The notes under the pieces are model-generated. The model was not told the DNA's origin and did no database searches. It was given only the letters and a program-made list of their open reading frames with translations. 43,889 nucleotides of DNA from positions 1 through 43,889 of the forward strand of contig CALWTF010000017.1 in the NCBI GenBank assembly GCA_944384415.1. The letters run 5' to 3'. This DNA is from an uncultured Clostridia bacterium. Its GTDB lineage: Bacteria > Bacillota > Clostridia > Christensenellales > UBA1242. Positions 17,920 to 32,129 of this stretch are shown here, one piece after another. Position numbers and translations under genes: made by a program. Every line of letters starts with the position of its first letter. The stretch's first letter is position 1.

Positions 17920-19062
17920 TTAAACATTTAAAAAAGAATTATAAGCATCTAATAATCCAAATCCACATTCATTTTTATCACATTGTAAATGTTTAGATGA
18001 GTTTAATAATATTGTTTTTATTCTGTTTGGTTTTAAAAACTGATATTCACCTAAAAGTAATGCACACACTCCCGCAACCATAGGCGTTGAAACACTTGTT
18101 CCGCTCATTTGTGTATAAAAAGTTTTTTTATTAGTAGTTGAAGTTATATCAACACCAGGTGCAATCAAATCTGGTTTAACATAAGAAAATGCAGGTCCAC
18201 GAGAGCTAAATGGAGCAACTTTTATATTATTATTTGTTATTATTTTATCCGCACTTCCAACAGTAATTATTTTGGGACTTGCACCAGGGCTTTTTATAGA
18301 GTTTGATTCAGGTCCATCATTACCAGATGCCGAAACAACACAAATTCCATTATCCCACAATATTTCTGCACCTTGAATTAAAGGGTCTTGCCTGTTTAAT
18401 GGTACACTTCCAAAACTCATACAAACAACTTTTATATTATATTTTTTATTATTATCATAAATCCACTGCATTGCATCCAGTATGGTAAAAGCTTGTGTCT
18501 CACCATATTTATCTAAGGCCTTTAAAATTATTAAATCGCAAGCAGGTGCTATACCACAAAATTTACCATTACTAGCCAATCCATTACCTGCAATAACACC
18601 AGTAACAAAAGTTCCATGTCCATTATCATCATACGGAAAATTTTTATTATTAACAAAATCTTTAAAAAAAATAATTCTATTTTTACCTATCACAAAATCT
18701 AGATGATTATAACACCCAGTATCAATAACAGCAACTGTAACGCCTTGACCAAAAATTTGATTTTTATGTAATTTATCTACACCAAGTATACCACAAGAAG
18801 CATCCATTAATATACTAGCTTTTTGTACACTTGTTACATATTCAATCCAAGGAAATTCATTAAGTTTTAGCAAATCCTTATTTTTTATTTTCAATCCAAA
18901 TGCATTTATGAATGGAAACTTTTTAATAATGCAATCATCATTAAAAATATTTTTTAACATTTTATATGAATTTTCCCAATTATTAACCCAAACAACACAT
19001 TTTATGTAATCATCTTTTAAACTTTGAACTTTATAAAACAAACTTTCATCAATTTTAAACAT
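17920..19062 (-). CDS. Subtilisin-like serine protease (S8, probably cytoplasmic)
   Basis: The catalytic residues are Asp114 (VAVIDTG), His149 (NGHGTFVTG) and Ser323 (MSGTSVSTPMVAG); the oxyanion Asn248 is in SASGNDG. Residues 1-80 resemble an inhibitor-I9-like propeptide and end in WIEYVTSVQKA before the catalytic core. There is no signal peptide, so an intracellular or AprX-like peptidase is likely. At 380 aa it is a minimal subtilase without extra C-terminal domains. The ATG has no strong ribosome site and lies 5 nt after the upstream small gene, which suggests coupling. The position beside spoIIA is suggestive of a sporulation role, but the sequence does not show one. Confidence 0.93.
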   Translation of the reverse strand: MFKIDESLFYKVQSLKDDYIKCVVWVNNWENSYKMLKNIFNDDCIIKKFPFINAFGLKIKNKDLLKLNEFPWIEYVTSVQKASILMDASCGILGVDKLHKNQIFGQGVTVAVIDTGCYNHLDFVIGKNRIIFFKDFVNNKNFPYDDNGHGTFVTGVIAGNGLASNGKFCGIAPACDLIILKALDKYGETQAFTILDAMQWIYDNNKKYNIKVVCMSFGSVPLNRQDPLIQGAEILWDNGICVVSASGNDGPESNSIKSPGASPKIITVGSADKIITNNNIKVAPFSSRGPAFSYVKPDLIAPGVDITSTTNKKTFYTQMSGTSVSTPMVAGVCALLLGEYQFLKPNRIKTILLNSSKHLQCDKNECGFGLLDAYNSFLNV

Positions 19063-19067
19063 TCAAA

Positions 19068-19385
19068 CTAACTTAAATAATTTAATAAATTTAACATTTT
19101 TGCTCTTTGTTCATCATTTAAAAGTGGTGCAATTTGCATAGCTGCTTTTTTTATCTGTTCAGCATCAAACTTTCCTTCTTGTTTCTGTTTTTTTATTAAT
19201 TTTAACATTTCATCTAACAATTGACTTTCATCCATAGAACCATACTTTTTTAAAAACTCTTCTGCTAAACCCTGATAATCCATAACATTTTCATTGTTTA
19301 TTGTTTTTTCTTGTTTAACATTTTCATCTTCCAATTCTTTATAATCAATTGGAATTTTAGCAAAATCTTTTAAATCCATTTTCAT
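19068..19385 (-). CDS. Small helical protein upstream of the subtilase
   Basis: I do not recognise this 105-aa protein. It is acidic and lysine-rich, predicted almost all helix. A segment near YGSMDESQLLDEMLKLI is followed by a second helical block around MQIAPLLNDEQRAKMLNLL. No cysteine, signal peptide or membrane segment is present. Start ATG 19385 follows AAAAGGA; a GTG seven codons upstream would cover that site. The stop is TAG and the subtilase ATG begins 5 nt later, so the two are probably one operon. It could be a substrate, adaptor or inhibitor of the protease, but this is inference from position. It diverges from the gene at 19461 across 75 bp. Confidence 0.75.
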   Translation of the reverse strand: MKMDLKDFAKIPIDYKELEDENVKQEKTINNENVMDYQGLAEEFLKKYGSMDESQLLDEMLKLIKKQKQEGKFDAEQIKKAAMQIAPLLNDEQRAKMLNLLNYLS

Positions 19386-19413
19386 ATTTCCTTTTATGTT
19401 TTTCACTTTATAT

Positions 19414-19460: not shown

Positions 19461-19892
19461 ATGGATATCACAGAAATTATAAAATTACTATCAACACTAT
19501 TTTCCAATAAAAACGAGTACTATTCTTCGCAAAACTCTAATTCTGAAAGTACTATGCAACCTGAAAATCCATCAAATATGCAAAATTTTAACAGTTCCTA
19601 CTGGTCTTTACCTAACTATGAATGGAAAGAACCCAACAAACAACCCACCCCATCAAGCTCAACTGATTTTACAAATTCTACGCCACAGAAAAACAATGAA
19701 CCTCAATCATCTATTTTAAATTTATTAAATCAAATTGATATTGAAAAAGTAATTCCATTAATATTAAAACTTTTACCAAATAAAAACTCAAACTCACAAC
19801 AATCAAACCAAGAAAAAAAAGATGACAAAGCATCTTTTCACAATGATACTTTTGAAAATAAATTTGTAAAAACTGACGACTATAATTATTAA
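19461..19892 (+). CDS. Low-complexity Asn/Ser/Pro-rich hydrophilic protein
   Basis: I do not recognise this 143-aa protein. It starts with a short hydrophobic helix (MDITEIIKLLSTLFSN), continues into a long disordered region rich in Asn, Ser, Gln and Pro (about 17-85), then a second helix (ILNLLNQIDIEKVIPLILKLLP) and a polar tail. Two amphipathic helices joined by a disordered linker suggest a scaffold or spore-surface type of protein, but nothing proves it. GGAG lies 7 nt before the ATG. It ends one base before the convergent HTH gene (19894). Confidence 0.65.
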   Translation: MDITEIIKLLSTLFSNKNEYYSSQNSNSESTMQPENPSNMQNFNSSYWSLPNYEWKEPNKQPTPSSSTDFTNSTPQKNNEPQSSILNLLNQIDIEKVIPLILKLLPNKNSNSQQSNQEKKDDKASFHNDTFENKFVKTDDYNY

Positions 19893-19893
19893 T

Positions 19894-20250
19894 TTATTTT
19901 CGTTTTTTTGATATTGTTTTTTGTTTATTTAAAATTAGTATTGTATATATTGTAACAGCATCTTCAAATTCTCTAACATCTAACCCAGTGATTTTTTTTA
20001 TTTTTTCAATTCTATAAAGCAAAGTATTTCGATGCATAAAACCGTTTGTACTTGTTTTTGATATGTTTAAATTGTTTTTAAAAAAAATCTCTACCGTTCT
20101 TACCAATTCATCATCACTTAAAAAATTTTTAATATTTTCATCATCAATAACATTATTACACCAACCTAAATCTTCATTATTCAAATTTTTTAATAATGTT
20201 GGTAACATAGATGAGTTGGTAAAAATTTTATCCTTAAAATTATTTATCAC
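19894..20250 (-). CDS. Orphan PucR/CdaR-type helix-turn-helix protein
   Basis: The C-terminal half is the PucR-family HTH: FMHRNTLLYRIEKIKKITG, then LDVREFEDAVTIYTILIL. Normally this domain closes a 300-500-aa regulator with sensor domains. Here the whole protein is about 118 aa, and the N-terminal 50 residues show no known sensor. I chose GTG 20250, which has GAGGG 8 nt upstream; an in-frame TTG at 20265 is the alternative but lacks a spaced ribosome site. Either start overlaps the 3' end of the ABC gene, so the two are translationally coupled. It could be a DNA-binding partner of that protein or the remnant of a larger regulator. Confidence 0.75.
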   Translation of the reverse strand: MINNFKDKIFTNSSMLPTLLKNLNNEDLGWCNNVIDDENIKNFLSDDELVRTVEIFFKNNLNISKTSTNGFMHRNTLLYRIEKIKKITGLDVREFEDAVTIYTILILNKQKTISKKRK

Positions 20251-20902
20251 CTTTTTTACCCTCAATACTTCCCGAATTAATTTTTATTGTTTTGTTAGTA
20301 ATATCTTTATATTTTGATGCATCAGTGCAAGCAATAACAAAAATTTCTGGTTCACTAACTTCAAGCAAAATTTTTAAAGATTTTATTACCTTAGCAAAAA
20401 TTTTTTCATCTTCTTCAATTTCTAAGTCATCACAAAGCAAAACATTTAATTTACGCAAACTTAAACGCGCAAACTGAACAATACGACGGTCACTTCCACA
20501 CAAAGTACCTACCTTTTCATTTTCCAAAGACTTTATTCCAAATTTTTTCAAAACATCATCAATTTGTTTTTTCCACAAATTTTTATCAATGCCTCTAATT
20601 TTTAACACATATTCTAAATTTTTATAAACCGTTTTATTTTCAAAAAAAACGGGTGGTGTTGAAATATAACCTAATGAAATATCACGCTCAAAATTAATTC
20701 TGTTCAAAGGTGTATTATCAAAATAAATTTCACCTTTTTTAATATTTTCTAAACCTGCTATAACCCTAAGCAAAGCAGTTCTTCCACTGCCTTTATCACC
20801 GGATAAAGCAACACTATCACCACTTTTTAAAGTTAATGATATATCATACAAAGCAAAATATTCTCGATTATAAGCAACAAAAACATTTTTTAATTCTATC
20901 AT
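20240..20902 (-). CDS. Degenerate ABC-type ATPase without permease
   Basis: Overall order and spacing are those of an ABC ATPase of about 220 aa (YNREYFALYDISLTLKSGD, then the P-loop). Every key motif is altered. Walker A is GDKGSGRTA, with Arg for the essential Lys. The signature LSGGQ is replaced by LCGSD followed by RRIVQFARLSL. Walker B LLCDD has Asp where the catalytic Glu should be. The switch His is absent (FVIACTDAS). It therefore probably binds nucleotide poorly or hydrolyses it slowly, if at all. No permease gene adjoins. Start ATG 20902 follows AAAAAGGA; an upstream in-frame GTG covers that site. It is coupled to the HTH gene by overlap. Confidence 0.85.
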   Translation of the reverse strand: MIELKNVFVAYNREYFALYDISLTLKSGDSVALSGDKGSGRTALLRVIAGLENIKKGEIYFDNTPLNRINFERDISLGYISTPPVFFENKTVYKNLEYVLKIRGIDKNLWKKQIDDVLKKFGIKSLENEKVGTLCGSDRRIVQFARLSLRKLNVLLCDDLEIEEDEKIFAKVIKSLKILLEVSEPEIFVIACTDASKYKDITNKTIKINSGSIEGKKGDK

Positions 20903-21066
20903 AAAAATTTCCTTTTTATTAGAATACACTTTTTAAAAAATTTTTTCAACTAAATTTTATTAAATAATAATAAAAAATTATATTATATATTAACCTAAAA
21001 TTGCTAGCCAAATATTAAATAAATTGTTATAATAATGGTGTATTTATTTAATTGGAGTTAACTATT

Positions 21067-22287
21067 ATGAAAGATTTATTTGAAAAATGTCAACAGTATA
21101 ACAAAGTAAATATTATAAAAGAAAATAATATGTATCCTTATTTCCACTACCTTAACAGTGGTCAAGATATAGTTGTTAATATGGAAGGACATCGTGTTAT
21201 TATGATTGGTTCAAACAACTATCTTGGTTTAACAAGCCACCCAGAGGTTATTGAAGCAAGCATAAAAGCAACAGAAAAGTATGGTTCAGGTTGTTCTGGT
21301 TCTCGTTTTTTAAACGGAACACTTGATTTGCACTTAGAACTAGAAGCTGAACTTGCTGAATTTTTACACAAAGAAGAAGCTGTTATATTTAGCACTGGTT
21401 TCCAATCAAATTTAGCTATAATTAGTGCTATTGCAGGAAGAAATGATTACATAATTTGCGATAAAGAAAATCACGCAAGTATATATGATGGTTGTCGATT
21501 AAGCTTTGCCCGTATGTTAAGATATGAACACAGTGATATGATAGACTTGGAACGACAACTGCAACTTGTTCCAGAAGATAAGGGTTGTTTAATTGTAACT
21601 GATGGTGTTTTTAGTATGGGGGGTGACCTTTGCAAATTACCTGAAATTGTTAAACTTGCTAAAAAATATGGTGCCCGAATTATGATTGATGATGCTCATG
21701 GTTTAGGTGTTTTTGGCGAACACGGAAGAGGTACCGCTGAATATTTCGGATTAGAAAATGATGTAGATATTATTATGGGAACTTTCAGTAAATCACTAGC
21801 ATCTTTAGGTGGATTTATGGTTGCCAAAAAAGAAGTATGCAACTACATTCGACACACATCAAGACCATTTATATTTGCAGCATCAATACCACCTTCTTGT
21901 GTAGCAAGTGCACTAACTTCATTAAGAATTTTAAAAAGAGAACCTGAAAGGGTTAAAAATTTGCTTGATATAACAGAATATATGCGCAATAATTTAAAAG
22001 CTCGAAATTTACCTATTCGTGAAAGTCAAGCACCTATTATTCCAATAAACACATATGATGATATAAGAACTTTTTATGCGTGCAAAGTTTTATTTGATAA
22101 TGGTGTTTATGTTAATCCTTGCATATCACCTGCTGTTCCTGTTGGTGAAGCTATAATAAGAACAAGCTACACAGCCACTCACACAAAAGAACTTATGGAT
22201 GAAGCGGCAGATATTATTAAAAAAGTTTTTGATGAATTGCCAAGTGTTGAATACTTTAAAAAGTTTGCTGAAGAAAATAATTTATAA
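21067..22287 (+). CDS. Alpha-oxoamine synthase (serine palmitoyltransferase-like)
   Basis: This PLP enzyme condenses an amino acid with an acyl-CoA, releasing CO2. The PLP lysine is Lys242 in TFSKSLASLGG, and the cofactor-binding DDAHGLGVFGEHGRG begins at Asp208. The GSGCSGSRFLNGTLDLHLELE stretch, with DKENHASIYDG, resembles bacterial serine palmitoyltransferases and AONS more than KBL. No biotin genes adjoin. ATG 21067 has GGAG 9 nt upstream; a TTG five codons earlier overlaps that site. At 406 aa the length is normal. It converges with a glycosyltransferase and shares a terminator. The substrate pair (serine, glycine or alanine; which acyl donor) cannot be read from sequence. Confidence 0.88.
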   Translation: MKDLFEKCQQYNKVNIIKENNMYPYFHYLNSGQDIVVNMEGHRVIMIGSNNYLGLTSHPEVIEASIKATEKYGSGCSGSRFLNGTLDLHLELEAELAEFLHKEEAVIFSTGFQSNLAIISAIAGRNDYIICDKENHASIYDGCRLSFARMLRYEHSDMIDLERQLQLVPEDKGCLIVTDGVFSMGGDLCKLPEIVKLAKKYGARIMIDDAHGLGVFGEHGRGTAEYFGLENDVDIIMGTFSKSLASLGGFMVAKKEVCNYIRHTSRPFIFAASIPPSCVASALTSLRILKREPERVKNLLDITEYMRNNLKARNLPIRESQAPIIPINTYDDIRTFYACKVLFDNGVYVNPCISPAVPVGEAIIRTSYTATHTKELMDEAADIIKKVFDELPSVEYFKKFAEENNL

Positions 22288-26146: not shown

Positions 26147-27364
26147 TTATTCTTTGAAAGTTACCTGCCCATTCATAAGAAGTGGCAACAAGAAATCACG
26201 AAGCGAAGATAATTCTTTATTTTGTTCTTCATTTTTTATTTCCATATTTATTAAAATATTAAAAATTGCAAATTTATTAACAATTTCTTTACAATAAGGA
26301 ATATTCATTTCGTTCAGATGACTATCATTTACAACTTTTTGAATTGAACCACTTGAAACATCTTTCATTCTACTAATAAATTTTGATATAGTTAAATAAG
26401 AATACAATAGTCTATTTTCTTTTGGTGTAAAGGCGGCAGCAGCTCTTCCTAAAGATATTTTATTATTACAAATAGCCATAGCACCAATAGACCCTGCAAC
26501 CGACATTAAAATATCATTTTTATGTGCATATCTTCTACTGGCATTTGTTTTTGCTTGACAATCTACCAATAAACCATTTCTCATATCACCAGCCCCTGAA
26601 CAATATAAAATTGCATCATTTCCATTATAATTCGAAGATAGTATGTTTTCTCCATCTGGACATTGTCCCCAAGTTACACTGCAAATATCCCTTATATTTA
26701 CAACTTCCCAGCCTTCGGGGATTTCTCGTTTTAATTGTTCATTGTAAACCATTTTACCACCCGATGATTTATAAGGTTTGCCTTGTTCATTTGGAAATTC
26801 AAATTGCAAAAACCAATAATCATAAATTGTTTTCGCCAATTCTTCAAGCTGTGAATTGATTTGATTATTGTTATTTATTTTTTTAGTTAAAATATTATAT
26901 ATTTTTGCAATCAGTTTTTGCTCGTTTAATGTTAAAATAGGTATTTTTATAGATTTAAACATAGAATGTGTCAAATCAGATTGTACTGAGTTCTTAGCTT
27001 TAATTAGTGCTTGATTTTTAAAAAATGTTGAATTTAAAACTGTAAACAAATAATCTTTATCTATTTTTTTACTATTCAATTTTACTATAAAAGAGTTATT
27101 GTGCACCACTCCACAAAATCCCTTAAAAACCAATCCTATTTGACCAGTTCTAGTATATATTATATCCTCTGGAGAAACTACAACATTTTTGTTCACATCA
27201 GTTGAAATAAATTTAGTAAATTTATTTTCTAACATATCTGCTATTCTTAATAGTGGTAAAACAAATTTATCTTGTTTCTTATTACTTATCAAATGTTCTG
27301 TAGTTTTGTTTATTGCTAATCCCTGATTTAATGATACAAATAATCCTACTTCCTCAAGTTTCAT
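26147..27364 (-). CDS. hsdS: Type I restriction-modification specificity subunit HsdS
   Basis: HsdS gives DNA sequence specificity to the HsdM and HsdR complex. The 405 aa show two target-recognition domains: one at about 1-145 and one at about 220-365. The first is followed by a conserved helical spacer (LNEQKLIAKIYNIL, QLEELAKTIYDYWFLQFEFP) and the second by its C-terminal counterpart (EEQNKELSSLRDFLLPLLMNG). TRD2 opens with IPEGWEVVNI. Both halves are intact. It overlaps the hsdM stop by 11 nt. No second hsdS, invertase or inverted repeats adjoin, so nothing suggests phase variation. The target site cannot be read from sequence. Confidence 0.94.
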   Translation of the reverse strand: MKLEEVGLFVSLNQGLAINKTTEHLISNKKQDKFVLPLLRIADMLENKFTKFISTDVNKNVVVSPEDIIYTRTGQIGLVFKGFCGVVHNNSFIVKLNSKKIDKDYLFTVLNSTFFKNQALIKAKNSVQSDLTHSMFKSIKIPILTLNEQKLIAKIYNILTKKINNNNQINSQLEELAKTIYDYWFLQFEFPNEQGKPYKSSGGKMVYNEQLKREIPEGWEVVNIRDICSVTWGQCPDGENILSSNYNGNDAILYCSGAGDMRNGLLVDCQAKTNASRRYAHKNDILMSVAGSIGAMAICNNKISLGRAAAAFTPKENRLLYSYLTISKFISRMKDVSSGSIQKVVNDSHLNEMNIPYCKEIVNKFAIFNILINMEIKNEEQNKELSSLRDFLLPLLMNGQVTFKE

Positions 27365-29015
27365 ACTTCAACTCCTTAAGACTTTTCTTTATTTCATCTT
27401 CAAGAGTTTTATTTTCTGCAAACAAGTTATTTAGGTTGTTTGTATATTCTTGAATTTTTGCATCAAATTCTTGTTGGGTTAATTGCACATATTCAATTTT
27501 AACATCAAAATATTGTCCAGCAGAAAAAGAATAGTTTTTATTTTTAATTTGTTCATAAGAAACAGCAATACTAAAATCATCTTCCACAATGTGTTCAGTA
27601 AATGTTTTTACAATTTTTTCAAGTTCTGTATCACTTAAAACTGTTTTTTGGTTTTTACCAACTTTTACTTTATCACCCAATTTTGAAGCATCAACAAGCA
27701 AAACATCACCATCTCTGTTTGTTTTATCTATAAACAACACCGAAACATTTGTTCCTGTGTTTGCAAATATATTTGATGGCATTGAAATTACACCACGAAG
27801 CCAATGGTTATTAACAATATGTTCTCGAATTTTCTTTTCAATGCCAGATTGTGCTGTTAAAAAACCAGTTGGAACAACTATTGCTGCTTTTCCACCATCT
27901 TTTAACGAATATAAGATATGTTGTATAAAACAAAGATAAATTGCCATAGATTCTTTTTTTGTGTTTGGAATTTTAGGAACTCCGGCAAAAAATCTTGAAG
28001 TGTTTTTCCAATTAACTTCAATTTCATTCCTTGTTGAAGAAAAATCTGTTTTAAATGGTGGATTTGAAGTTATAAAATCAAAAGTTTTCAACCCCGAACT
28101 GTCATCTCCTTGAATTTTAAAATGTGCTGGAGTTTTTAAGGTATCACCTTCAATTATATTATTTAAAGATTCCATTAAACCATTTAACAACATATTAATT
28201 CTTAAAAACCTTGCCGATTTTTGAGAAATATCTTGCGTAAAAACCACTGCTCGGTTTCCAAATTTGCCTTCACCAAGTTCGTTTGCTAAATGCAAAACCA
28301 AAGAACCTGAACCTGCGCTTGGGTCATAAATTTCATATAATTTATCTTCAATTGGCGCCATATGAACAAGAATTTTTGCAATTGCACTTGATAATGCTTG
28401 CGGTGTAAAGTATTCGGCATAAGTTCCGCTTGCCACATTATAGTTTTGAATTAAGTATTCAAAAATAGTGCTAAAAAAATCATAGTTACCTTCAATGGTT
28501 TCACCAAAATCAAATTTATCCAATGTTATGCACGAAAAAATATTTTTTGCAAAAGCATTTCTTTTTGTTGTTGGAATAAATTCGCTAATAGGTGTAAACA
28601 AAGGTTTAAACTCACCCTCGGCAGTTTCTATGCTAAAAGCTTTATTTTTAGGATATTTAGAAATTCTTATTAAAGCCTCATCAAATTGTTTATAGAAATC
28701 ATCATCACCAATATGCCCTACCAAATATTCAATTGTATCTTCATAAGCAAACGCAACATCGTTTGAATAAGTATCATAAAAAGCATCTAAATAATTATTT
28801 TTGTTTTGCTTTATATCTTCAATGCTCATATTTGTATCTTTTGCAAATTTTTTTAAGTTTGCAATAAATTTATCATTTAAAAATTTATACAAAAAAACTG
28901 ATGTAACAATAATTTCTTCCGAAGCAGTATTTGATAAACCATTAGTGTTGCAAAGCCCTTGAAGGTCATCAATAATATTTTTGATATTTTGTTCCAATTT
29001 AGTATAATCTGACAT
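27354..29015 (-). CDS. hsdM: Type I restriction-modification methyltransferase HsdM
   Basis: N6-adenine methyltransferase subunit, 553 aa. An N-terminal helical domain (about 1-170) precedes the SAM-dependent methyltransferase core. Motif I is DPSAGSGSLV at 231-240 and the catalytic NPPF is at 318-321 (N-P-P-F, gamma class adenine methylation). The C-terminal helices contact HsdS. The stop is TGA within the start of hsdS, so translation is coupled. It follows hsdR by 9 nt in a single operon. Confidence 0.96.
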   Translation of the reverse strand: MSDYTKLEQNIKNIIDDLQGLCNTNGLSNTASEEIIVTSVFLYKFLNDKFIANLKKFAKDTNMSIEDIKQNKNNYLDAFYDTYSNDVAFAYEDTIEYLVGHIGDDDFYKQFDEALIRISKYPKNKAFSIETAEGEFKPLFTPISEFIPTTKRNAFAKNIFSCITLDKFDFGETIEGNYDFFSTIFEYLIQNYNVASGTYAEYFTPQALSSAIAKILVHMAPIEDKLYEIYDPSAGSGSLVLHLANELGEGKFGNRAVVFTQDISQKSARFLRINMLLNGLMESLNNIIEGDTLKTPAHFKIQGDDSSGLKTFDFITSNPPFKTDFSSTRNEIEVNWKNTSRFFAGVPKIPNTKKESMAIYLCFIQHILYSLKDGGKAAIVVPTGFLTAQSGIEKKIREHIVNNHWLRGVISMPSNIFANTGTNVSVLFIDKTNRDGDVLLVDASKLGDKVKVGKNQKTVLSDTELEKIVKTFTEHIVEDDFSIAVSYEQIKNKNYSFSAGQYFDVKIEYVQLTQQEFDAKIQEYTNNLNNLFAENKTLEDEIKKSLKELKYET

Positions 29016-29024
29016 TTATTTCTC

Positions 29025-32000
29025 CTAAATACTTTCTTTATATATAAGCAAGTTTGTATATAAAATTTCTAATAAAACATTATAACTATCTTTTATTTTA
29101 GCATATAGTTCTTTTGTTAACAATTCTTGCGTGATTTTTGTTTTTAGCGAATTTACAAAACCTTTTTTACCTTGAACAATTAAAACATCATCATAAATTG
29201 TATCTTTTATATTATCATAAACCACCTTTAAAAATGCTTCAATAATTGAACGGTCAATTTCTGTTTCTAACACAGCATCACTAAGTGTTTTAACAAAACC
29301 ATAACTTCCACCATATGATTTAGATAATCTTTCATTTTCTTCATTTAATTTTTTTGCTTCCTCATAAGCAAATCTTAACTCGTCATTTAATTCATCAAGG
29401 CTAGCATATTCAAACATTTGTAACTTTTCAAAAATTTGTTTCAATAAATCTTCTAATTTTTGAATTTTTATATCTTTTTTGTTCTTATTCTTTTTTATTT
29501 CGTTTTGAACATTTGTTAATTGTAATTTAACTTTTTCAAACTCTTGGTCGGTTAGCACAAATTTTCCTAAATCAAGAACTGTAATTTTTGTTTTTATAAA
29601 TTCATAAACAACACTTACAACTTCATTATTGTTCATTATATCAAGTGTGTTTATTGTTTGTGTGGTTAAATTAATAAATGAAATTCTATCATTAACTGCT
29701 TTTAAATATTTGTTAATTCTGTCAATATCAATCAAGTTATAGTATTCTTCAGCCCTAGAAAGTTTAAATTCTATTGAACATTCTTTTATGGCTGTTAACA
29801 ATTTTTTTATTTTAAACAATGCTTCCTTAGTATAAAGTTGCATCATCTGAACAAACAATTCAATATTATCTTGGTTAATAAACAGCTTTAATTCTTGTTT
29901 TAATCTATCAAATTTTCGTTTTATATCATCTTTATCAACAATTAAACCAGAAAGTGAAACATCATCATCACTATCAGCATTCAAATCATCTTCAAGTTCT
30001 TTTATATATGCATTTAATGTGTTGTTGTATTCTTTTTCTATGTCAACAAAATCTACTATGTATCCATATTGATAAACTTTTCCTGTTGGGCTTTTATATG
30101 GTCTATTTACCCTTGAAATTGTTTGTAACAAAGCCTGTGCGTGAGGACCACGCAACAGATACATTTTTTTCAATCTTTTTACATCATAACCTGTAGTTAA
30201 CATATAATGCACAACCAATATATCAGGAAAACCATTTTCTCGAAAATTTATTTGATTTTGTTCATTAATAACATTTTGCACCGCGGTATTTTCGCTGTCT
30301 GACATAACCAAACCAGTTTTTAAACTGCTATTCTTATTAAACCATTCATTTATAAGTTTTGCTTGTTTGTTAGACCTGCAAACAATCATTCCACCAATAG
30401 AATTATCGGTGTTTATAAGCCTAAATTGTTTGAAATCTCTTTCAATATATTTACTTATACTTTCAACATAATCATTAGATTCATAAACATCTTTACTATC
30501 TAAATTTTTATTTTCAAGCTCTAAATTTTCTCGAATTTCTGCTTTTGCTGCAGTGTCTATTTGCTCTTTTTTTATTCTTAATGTATATCCATCGGCAATG
30601 GATTTATCATAAAAGTATTTGTGTATATAATCACCAAACTTTAAATTTGACCTTTCTTTTTTTGTTAAAAGTGGCGTTCCAGTCATTGCAATATAAATAC
30701 CATTACTATCACAAGTCATAAGATTTTTATAAAATTCACCGTGCAAATTATATGAACGATGTGCTTCATCAACAAAAAATATTCTTTGTACTTTAACATC
30801 ATAAAAATTATCCACATTAGGCATTTTTGATTCTTCCATTAATTTTTGAACATTTACTATACAAATTGTTCCAACGCCATTATTAGCACTATTTAATGGT
30901 TTTTTTAACTCTTTGGAAAATTCTTCCTTTGTATTTACATTAATTACATTAAAATCACGATTAACAAATTCTGTTGTTGCTTGTTTCATTAAATCAAGTC
31001 TATCTACTATAAAAAAGAATTTAGTACTTACATTTTTATTTGTAAAAAAATCCTTAATTACACGGGTTGCATATGCACTTAGTGCAGTTTTCCCTGAACC
31101 CTGAGTGTGCCAAATAATTCCATTTTTGTTTTTTTCACCAAGTCTTTTAATAATAGCACGAGTAGCAAAAAATTGAGGATATCTCATAATTTGTTTTTGT
31201 TTTACAGGAATTTCTTCAAATTTATTTAAGGTTTCATTATGTATCCTTTTTATTTCTGTTAAATACATAATACCATAATGAAGCATATACATAAATCTTT
31301 CTTTATCATAAAAAGATGTGATAAATCTATTGCAAGGTGTAATATCAAGCAAATTTGTTTGAAACTCGGAAGTTTCAATTTCTTCGGGATTGTATCCCCC
31401 ATCCTTTACAATATATTTGATTGTTTCTTCACTAACTTCTTTAAGGTTGTATCTTGCGTGATATTCTTTTATATCTTCTCTAAAAAATGAAAAAGTTGTG
31501 TTTTGTCCATTAGGTGTTGTATAAAACGAACCAGCCTTCACCTCCTCGGCAATATCATCATCTGATTCTTCATATTCCATATTATTTGAAAAAGACACAA
31601 TTTGAATAAGATTAAAATATTTTCTGTAATCATCATTTTTTAATCTTTTATTTATCATTCTTTCAAACTCAACTTGTATGCCACCACTGTTGTTAGGATG
31701 TTTAACTTCAAGAAATGAAAGAGGAATACCATTTATCAAAATATTTATATCTGGCCTAAATGAACCCTCTTCACTACCTTCTTTTACACTAAACGGCAAT
31801 TCATCAACAACAGCAAAATCATTATTTTCAATATTTTCAAAGTCAACAAGTTTTGTTTCATACTCTACCGATGTTAGCCTTTTATAAAATTCTTTTCCTA
31901 AATCATTAAATTGTATTAAAGAGTTAATCTCATCAATTAACTTAAAAATTTCTTCATCACTATATTTCCTTCCATTAATTTTTTCAATAGCAGGCTTAAA

Positions 32001-32129
32001 ACGATTTAAAAAAATCTTAGTATGAAAATCAACATTAGCACCTTTTATAGACTGATAGCTATAACCCAATCTTAAAAAATGAACAGTGGCTGGAAATTTT
32101 ACTCTTGTATCCTCGTTAAAATGCAACAT
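29025..32129 (-). CDS. hsdR: Type I restriction endonuclease subunit HsdR
   Basis: HsdR translocates and cuts unmethylated DNA. The N-terminal PD-(D/E)xK nuclease is visible as RPDINI (Asp127) and FLEVKH (Glu141, Lys143). The SF2 motor has Walker A TQGSGKTA at about 342-349, FVDEAHRSY and TGTPLL, and a helicase C domain with LTTGYDVKRLKKMYLLRGP and QTISRVNRPY. The last 300 residues are helical and lysine/glutamate-rich, as expected for the HsdM-binding end. At 1034 aa it is complete. AGGAG precedes the ATG. It is the first gene of the hsdR-hsdM-hsdS operon; its promoter should lie in 32130-32200, but I cannot pick it out. Confidence 0.96.
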   Translation of the reverse strand: MLHFNEDTRVKFPATVHFLRLGYSYQSIKGANVDFHTKIFLNRFKPAIEKINGRKYSDEEIFKLIDEINSLIQFNDLGKEFYKRLTSVEYETKLVDFENIENNDFAVVDELPFSVKEGSEEGSFRPDINILINGIPLSFLEVKHPNNSGGIQVEFERMINKRLKNDDYRKYFNLIQIVSFSNNMEYEESDDDIAEEVKAGSFYTTPNGQNTTFSFFREDIKEYHARYNLKEVSEETIKYIVKDGGYNPEEIETSEFQTNLLDITPCNRFITSFYDKERFMYMLHYGIMYLTEIKRIHNETLNKFEEIPVKQKQIMRYPQFFATRAIIKRLGEKNKNGIIWHTQGSGKTALSAYATRVIKDFFTNKNVSTKFFFIVDRLDLMKQATTEFVNRDFNVINVNTKEEFSKELKKPLNSANNGVGTICIVNVQKLMEESKMPNVDNFYDVKVQRIFFVDEAHRSYNLHGEFYKNLMTCDSNGIYIAMTGTPLLTKKERSNLKFGDYIHKYFYDKSIADGYTLRIKKEQIDTAAKAEIRENLELENKNLDSKDVYESNDYVESISKYIERDFKQFRLINTDNSIGGMIVCRSNKQAKLINEWFNKNSSLKTGLVMSDSENTAVQNVINEQNQINFRENGFPDILVVHYMLTTGYDVKRLKKMYLLRGPHAQALLQTISRVNRPYKSPTGKVYQYGYIVDFVDIEKEYNNTLNAYIKELEDDLNADSDDDVSLSGLIVDKDDIKRKFDRLKQELKLFINQDNIELFVQMMQLYTKEALFKIKKLLTAIKECSIEFKLSRAEEYYNLIDIDRINKYLKAVNDRISFINLTTQTINTLDIMNNNEVVSVVYEFIKTKITVLDLGKFVLTDQEFEKVKLQLTNVQNEIKKNKNKKDIKIQKLEDLLKQIFEKLQMFEYASLDELNDELRFAYEEAKKLNEENERLSKSYGGSYGFVKTLSDAVLETEIDRSIIEAFLKVVYDNIKDTIYDDVLIVQGKKGFVNSLKTKITQELLTKELYAKIKDSYNVLLEILYTNLLIYKESI

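Follow-up and report, generated by a model that had tools for sequence, protein, structure and literature searches.

Two overlapping genes on the reverse strand

The window analysed here, a stretch of 43,889 nucleotides from an uncultured Clostridia bacterium, carries two overlapping genes on its reverse strand. The upstream gene (20240-20902, ATG start; a longer frame with a GTG start extends to 20929) encodes a protein of 220 residues. Its reading frame, its motifs and a Pfam match (ABC_tran, 74.4 bits against a cut-off of 25) identify it as the nucleotide-binding domain (NBD) of an ABC ATPase, predicted to be dead for hydrolysis and called here a pseudo-ABC. When the motifs are read directly, the Walker A (GDKGSGRT, residues 35-42, encoded at 20777-20800 on the same strand) has an Arg in the place of the Lys, the signature reads TLCGSDRR where LSGGQ is expected, the Walker B (LLCDDL) has an Asp for the Glu, and the His-switch has been replaced (IACTDA). 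The Q-loop Gln is absent as well. An AlphaFold2 model of the protein is that of a complete NBD (pLDDT 90.3, pTM 0.87), and its closest folds are GlcV (Z 25.4, rmsd 2.8 over 214), E. coli MalK (Z 25.1) and 7x0q (Z 24.7), with sugar-importer ATPases ranking first and other NBDs tied within about 1 Z unit. The protein thus has an NBD fold like that of the CUT1-type multitask sugar-importer ATPases MsmX, MsmK and MalK, among them B. subtilis MsmX (6yir) and C. thermocellum Clo1313_2554 (7x0q). Unlike these, it stops after the NBD and so has no C-terminal regulatory domain, and it also lacks the signature GG, the catalytic Glu and the His-switch.

The downstream gene (19894-20265, TTG start) encodes a protein of 123 residues in which the C-terminal HTH of PucR (HTH_30, 64.1 bits, cut-off 27) is the only PucR/CdaR domain found by Pfam, the N-terminal sensor and GGDEF-like domains being absent. 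The protein aligns with the tail of full-length CdaR and corresponds to about the C-terminal third of a CdaR/PucR-type regulator. Its model (pLDDT 79.8) is closest to a fragment of the PucR-type Rv2242 (Z 13.3, rmsd 1.6, 84 residues) and to BAD_0249 (Z 12.3 over 84 residues), followed by LysR-type domains with Z of about 9. HTH_30 and its fold are therefore shared with these regulators but, unlike them, the window gene encodes only about the last 100-140 residues and misses the sensor and GGDEF-like domains. The start of the HTH frame overlaps the end of the ABC frame by 26 nucleotides (20240-20265), an arrangement in which translational coupling is possible. A preliminary description of this DNA had already recorded two frames at these coordinates, the Arg of Walker A, the LCGSD signature, the Walker B Asp, the missing switch His, a bare PucR/CdaR-type HTH overlapping the ABC gene and the lack of a permease beside it. 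All of this stands: the ORF list and Pfam confirm both ORFs as genuine, and no permease gene adjoins the window ABC gene. The loss of the Q-loop Gln was a point missing from that description.

Distribution within the window's family

In a set of 60 relatives, the ABC protein was matched at E<1e-25 in 26 of the 36 genomes of the window's family and in none of the 24 genomes of other families, where the best match reached 6.7e-21 and the matches listed were mostly longer ABC proteins. The HTH query matched 22 of the 36 family genomes, in short open frames of 103-166 codons. A larger sample of 297 family genomes gave a strong ABC match (profile E<1e-50, a threshold set after inspection of the match list) in 200 genomes and a credible HTH profile match in 92, G161 having been left out of 93 because its match spans 30 positions, a stop codon among them (E 8.6e-4). 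Both a strong ABC and an HTH occur in 64 genomes, a strong ABC without detectable HTH in 136 of the 200, and in 28 an HTH accompanied by an ABC match that is weak or divergent. Where the loci of these last were read (18 genomes), an ABC gene lies directly upstream of the HTH gene in 15, counting a fragment at the contig end in G069. The HTH gene has no adjoining ABC gene in two genomes (G013 and G021, loci L089 and L090), and the contig of G064 starts at the HTH gene. Altogether 41 family HTH loci were read, L123 and L125 not being counted separately from L070 and L061, whose contigs equal theirs in length, and in 38 of the 40 with the upstream side on the contig the ABC gene is directly upstream on the same strand. 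These pairs occur in more than one gene neighbourhood, with frames that often overlap.

All 92 credible HTH matches are short by open frame except that of G030, whose open frame has 300 codons, yet the ORF from its start codon has 126 residues. The family shows a series of forms, the first being a dead ABC of 291-387 residues with a C-terminal part, followed by a short HTH (11 loci). The further forms are an NBD-only dead ABC of 203-256 residues with a short HTH, and an NBD-only ABC alone.

The expectation that the two genes co-occur in order was borne out in one direction, since the HTH gene nearly always stands behind an ABC gene, but not in the other, given the 136 strong-ABC genomes that lack an HTH match. 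These genomes indicate that the ABC protein also has, or has gained, another role, and the initial idea of an ABC domain that serves the HTH alone is not supported. Given the many HTH-less genomes, control of the HTH cannot be the sole use of the NBD, unless another regulator has replaced the HTH protein.

The reading that we put forward is that the dead NBD would control the bare HTH protein in the manner of MalK and MalT. By this analogy we consider it quite possible, if somewhat short of probable. The two genes might also be separate survivors, with a small HTH protein that regulates locally by itself and a dead ABC that has an unrelated, non-catalytic role, such as a scaffold or a nucleotide sensor for some other partner, so that their adjacency would be merely inherited from the MsmK-CdaR pair. 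This account, which we hold to be possible though doubtful, fits the many genomes with the ABC and no HTH as well as the two with an HTH and no adjoining ABC. It also fits the constraint on the ABC in HTH-less loci, for which two pairs (L114/L115 and L116/L117) gave dN of 0.17 and 0.14, with dS saturated above 2. It agrees less well with an order kept in 38 of 40 loci, in more than one neighbourhood and often with overlapping frames.

Motif loss, permeases and selection

Motifs were counted in 48 family ABC proteins, which were picked by search rank and HTH position and are not a random sample. The signature GG is intact in none of the 48. Walker A has its Lys in 40, an Arg in three (the window, L073 and L084) and another residue in five, and the Walker B Asp is kept in 46; the catalytic Glu was found in four proteins, the Q-loop Gln in five and the switch His in one. 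The loss of catalytic motifs is a trait of the family and no local defect. When the altered motifs of the window are followed through the family, the broken signature is common to all 48 proteins, but the Walker A Arg is not conserved. With the Lys present in 40, most family members probably still bind nucleotide. The kept Lys and Walker B Asp agree with binding that is not followed by hydrolysis. Judging from the generally known roles of the motifs, they would likely do so without hydrolysis, and they would likely form no canonical ATP-sandwich dimer. The loss of the signature GG throughout the sample thus speaks against dimerisation of that canonical kind; the preliminary description had allowed for dimerisation.

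Signature and catalytic residues that are changed, and kept so by selection, are a feature that the window ABC has in common with the degenerate sites of type I ABC exporters, in which a Walker A Lys to Arg change is also reported (PMC7756269). The dead NBD might likewise be the non-catalytic half of a heteromeric ABC transporter whose intact NBD partner is encoded elsewhere, a role in which degenerate nucleotide sites are known (PMC7756269), and other ABC proteins are present in the family genomes. The exporter sites, however, belong to a two-NBD transporter, and neither a permease nor a second NBD is a constant neighbour of the ABC in the mapped family loci. Moreover, seven of nine genomes of the window's genus have the ABC but no BPD_transp_1 permease, and with the signature GG missing from all 48 proteins, a site formed jointly with a partner would be damaged as well. 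We consider a heteromeric transporter improbable.

The family at large has few candidate clients. An ATPase with an OB_MalK domain was found in none of its 36 genomes, against 15 of the 24 genomes of other families; BPD_transp_1 permeases are lacking in 12 of the 36 and number one to three in the remaining 24, whereas each of the 24 genomes outside the family has between 3 and 46. The clients of MsmK are thus probably gone from the window's family, which is a further difference from the MsmK/MalK systems.

Both genes are under purifying selection. In three genome pairs, dN/dS (NG86) was 0.105, 0.169 and 0.125 for the ABC gene and 0.018, 0.078 and 0.070 for the HTH gene, compared with 0.030, 0.098 and 0.078 for the neighbouring sigF and 0.026, 0.173 and 0.079 for the neighbouring SpoIIAB (both named by reading their translations), although dS approaches or exceeds 1 in two of these pairs, which makes those ratios approximate. 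We therefore find it very improbable that the pair is a decaying remnant without function, even though both genes are shorter than their homologues, the catalytic motifs differ among genera, and the ABC, the HTH or both are absent from part of the family. Relatives from other families do have the ATPase intact and the regulator at full length, which the preliminary description would have taken as the mark of a remnant, but decay itself is contradicted by the ratios (0.10-0.17 for the ABC and 0.02-0.08 for the HTH), which lie in the range of functional neighbours and indicate that the pair is not decaying. In addition, the frames are open in many genera, and the HTH proteins of the family have kept the recognition region and a nearly invariant core. 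It is more improbable still that the ABC drives an unrecognised importer with an ATPase activity that is very low or non-canonical. Most members keep the Walker A Lys and the Walker B Asp, and four of the 48 the catalytic Glu, but none of the 36 family genomes has an OB_MalK ATPase, their BPD_transp_1 permeases are few, and the signature GG is lost in every protein counted.

Likely origin and proposed control of the HTH protein

The ABC-HTH pair is likely the stripped, retained descendant of an ancient clostridial pair made up of an MsmK/MalK-type ATPase and a CdaR-like regulator. Such pairs were found in two of the 24 genomes of other families (G052 and G058), where a MalK-type ATPase of 373-374 residues is followed on the same strand by a full CdaR of 359-363 residues. 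According to Pfam, the ATPase of G052 carries OB_MalK and TOBE and its regulator GGDEF_2 and HTH_30, and the latter two domains also occur in the full-length CdaR homologue at L091. In G055 an intact MalK-type ATPase gene and a full CdaR-like gene adjoin divergently. Named genomes were scanned by HTH alignment alone, and the best 80 loci comprised five of the family type and 75 others. Among these best 75 non-family loci the HTH sits in a longer regulator of 243-421 residues (L179 is cut by the contig end), and in 19 a MalK-type ATPase gene of the same strand lies upstream at a distance of at most 1.4 kb. Of these 19 ATPases, 17 have LSGGQ, that of L187 is truncated at the contig end and that of L162 is dead. 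In 33 further ATPase loci, taken from the family of L162 and four other genomes, the short flank contains a regulator HTH of the same orientation in 15, and the motifs are intact in all but L231, which is the same gene as L162; the signature of L235 escaped the motif pattern, and the gene of L126, in the same genome, reads LSGGQ. The order of the window pair matches that of these clostridial genes, and since an intact ATPase and a full-length regulator stand in the same order outside the family, the pair looks descended from a normal one. This adjacency is not universal, as Clo1313_2554 is described as a standalone gene in PMC9601137.

The best solved single-NBD relatives of the family ABC profile are 7x0q, 2it1 and MsmX (6yir), ahead of FtsE and MJ0796; two-NBD exporters outscore the sugar ATPases in total because both of their domains count. 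In an NBD tree the dead ABCs form one group (100/97), whose long branches do not allow the tree to place it with MsmK or with FtsE. The tree does not put the dead ABCs inside MsmK, and we do not rest a descent from MsmK on it. The C-terminal parts of the long family forms resemble the MsmK domain weakly (hhalign probability 3-4%, P 0.003 global and 0.015 local), and their last residues, of the type FDxxTGxxI, resemble MsmK by eye; Pfam gave no OB or TOBE match in the C-terminal part of the six long forms scanned. In a PDB profile search of the long forms, the best rows, which are two-NBD exporters, cover the NBD, three rows extend to position 268, and the MalK C-terminal domain appears in none of them.

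The dead ATPase of L162 (2815-3927, forward strand), from Clostridia bacterium UC5.1-1E11, is a full-length MsmK type that has kept Walker A and Walker B. Its Q-loop Gln has changed to Pro, its signature reads LTTSQ, and its switch His is replaced by Glu, with an Asn after it. It adjoins an intact CdaR of 361 residues and is a separate dead MsmK, apart from the window's family.

Two other arrangements of CdaR genes were seen. In the loci L126-L200 an FtsE-like ABC gene with LSGGE often lies downstream of a full-length CdaR gene, an S41 (CtpA-like) peptidase gene following in some, and a tie of full-length CdaR to cell-wall genes is possible. In a genome of another family of the order (G049), an HTH-only CdaR of 113 residues (L095, 7700-8041, reverse strand) is followed by an S41-like peptidase and has no adjoining ABC gene; it is apparently a separate truncation.

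For the control of the HTH protein by the dead NBD we propose the following course. The family would have lost its carbohydrate ABC importers; the ATPase would have shed its signature motif, catalytic Glu and His-switch, as well as the C-terminal domain in most of the genera read, and the CdaR-like regulator its sensor domains, both staying under selection. The dead NBD would act as an adaptor that binds nucleotide without hydrolysing it. Where the HTH gene is present, it would bind the HTH protein and set its DNA-binding activity, perhaps by holding or releasing it according to nucleotide state. The analogy is with E. coli, where MalT is bound by MalK and so kept at the membrane in the absence of sugar transport (PMC10427625), a case of a sugar-ABC NBD controlling a transcription regulator to which the window pair may be likened. 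Unlike the window pair, with its dead NBD and bare HTH, the E. coli system combines a STAND protein, MalT, with a transporter ATPase, MalK, that is active. A wider version, which we rate as rather unlikely, would have MsmK double as a direct controller of CdaR throughout the Clostridia, with the window's reduced-genome family keeping the signalling half alone and L162 as a second, independent case. In that family a nucleotide-binding NBD that no longer hydrolyses would then gate a bare HTH protein, the two forming a regulator in two pieces made out of parts of a transporter.

Among open-licence PubMed Central papers we found no recognisable report of an MsmK-CdaR pair or of a dead ABC with a bare HTH. 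The ABC-HTH pair is an oddity that selection maintains family-wide and whose likely origin can be traced, and not a wholly new kind of system. If the proposed control is true, nature would here have separated signalling by a sugar-transport ATPase from transport itself, and the proposed MsmK-CdaR link could be tested in the many clostridial pairs that are intact. Whether or not the HTH is controlled, a transporter-type ATPase has been kept by selection across a whole small-genome family after losing catalysis and, as it seems, its clients.

In the window's genus, the HTH protein might act on the promoter of the gene divergent from the ABC gene. That gene (21067-22287, forward strand; the listed ORF begins at 21052 with TTG) encodes a PLP enzyme like BioF, Kbl and serine palmitoyltransferase, the last being its best model (555 bits, below the cut-off of 640); sphingolipid precursors are a conceivable product. 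A BioF/Kbl-like gene is divergent from the ABC-HTH genes in 15 family loci. In the window its promoter contains the element CTAGCCA-N17-TATAAT (21004-21033, forward strand), and TAG[TC]CA stands 16-18 nucleotides ahead of a TATAAT-like -10 box in 9 of the 15 divergent promoters, being absent from the other six (L061, L070, L075, L076 and L083, with HTH, and L085, without). The pattern CTAGYCA-N17-TAYAAT has a single copy per genome in six of the nine genomes of the genus, always at the divergent promoter, against none in the backwards control; as the pattern was derived from the same promoters, this shows the lack of other copies and boxes that are conserved between diverged spacers. Based on these sequences, we regard the element as a candidate operator of the HTH protein, and its location at -35 is suggestive of activation. 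We make no case for an HTH regulon beyond this one promoter: allowing one mismatch, TTGRCTAGYNAA occurs 82 times in the window's own genome and 53 times in the backwards control, and its three exact occurrences all lack a TATAAT-like box at a distance of 16-18 nucleotides.

Some other neighbours may be mentioned. Convergent with the HTH gene is an ORF of 143 residues (19461-19892, forward strand), of low complexity and rich in N, Q, S and P; many family loci carry an ORF at this place, which evolves fast (dN/dS 0.24-0.31 in three genome pairs). Beyond it, an S8 peptidase and an unknown protein of about 100 residues (cluster 3) are encoded at 17920-19406 on the reverse strand, and these are, after the HTH, the commonest neighbours of the ABC gene, in 29 and 24 of 49 loci, respectively. 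Further along the window, three genes on the reverse strand (26147-32129) were read by eye from their translations as a type I restriction-modification set (S, M and R).
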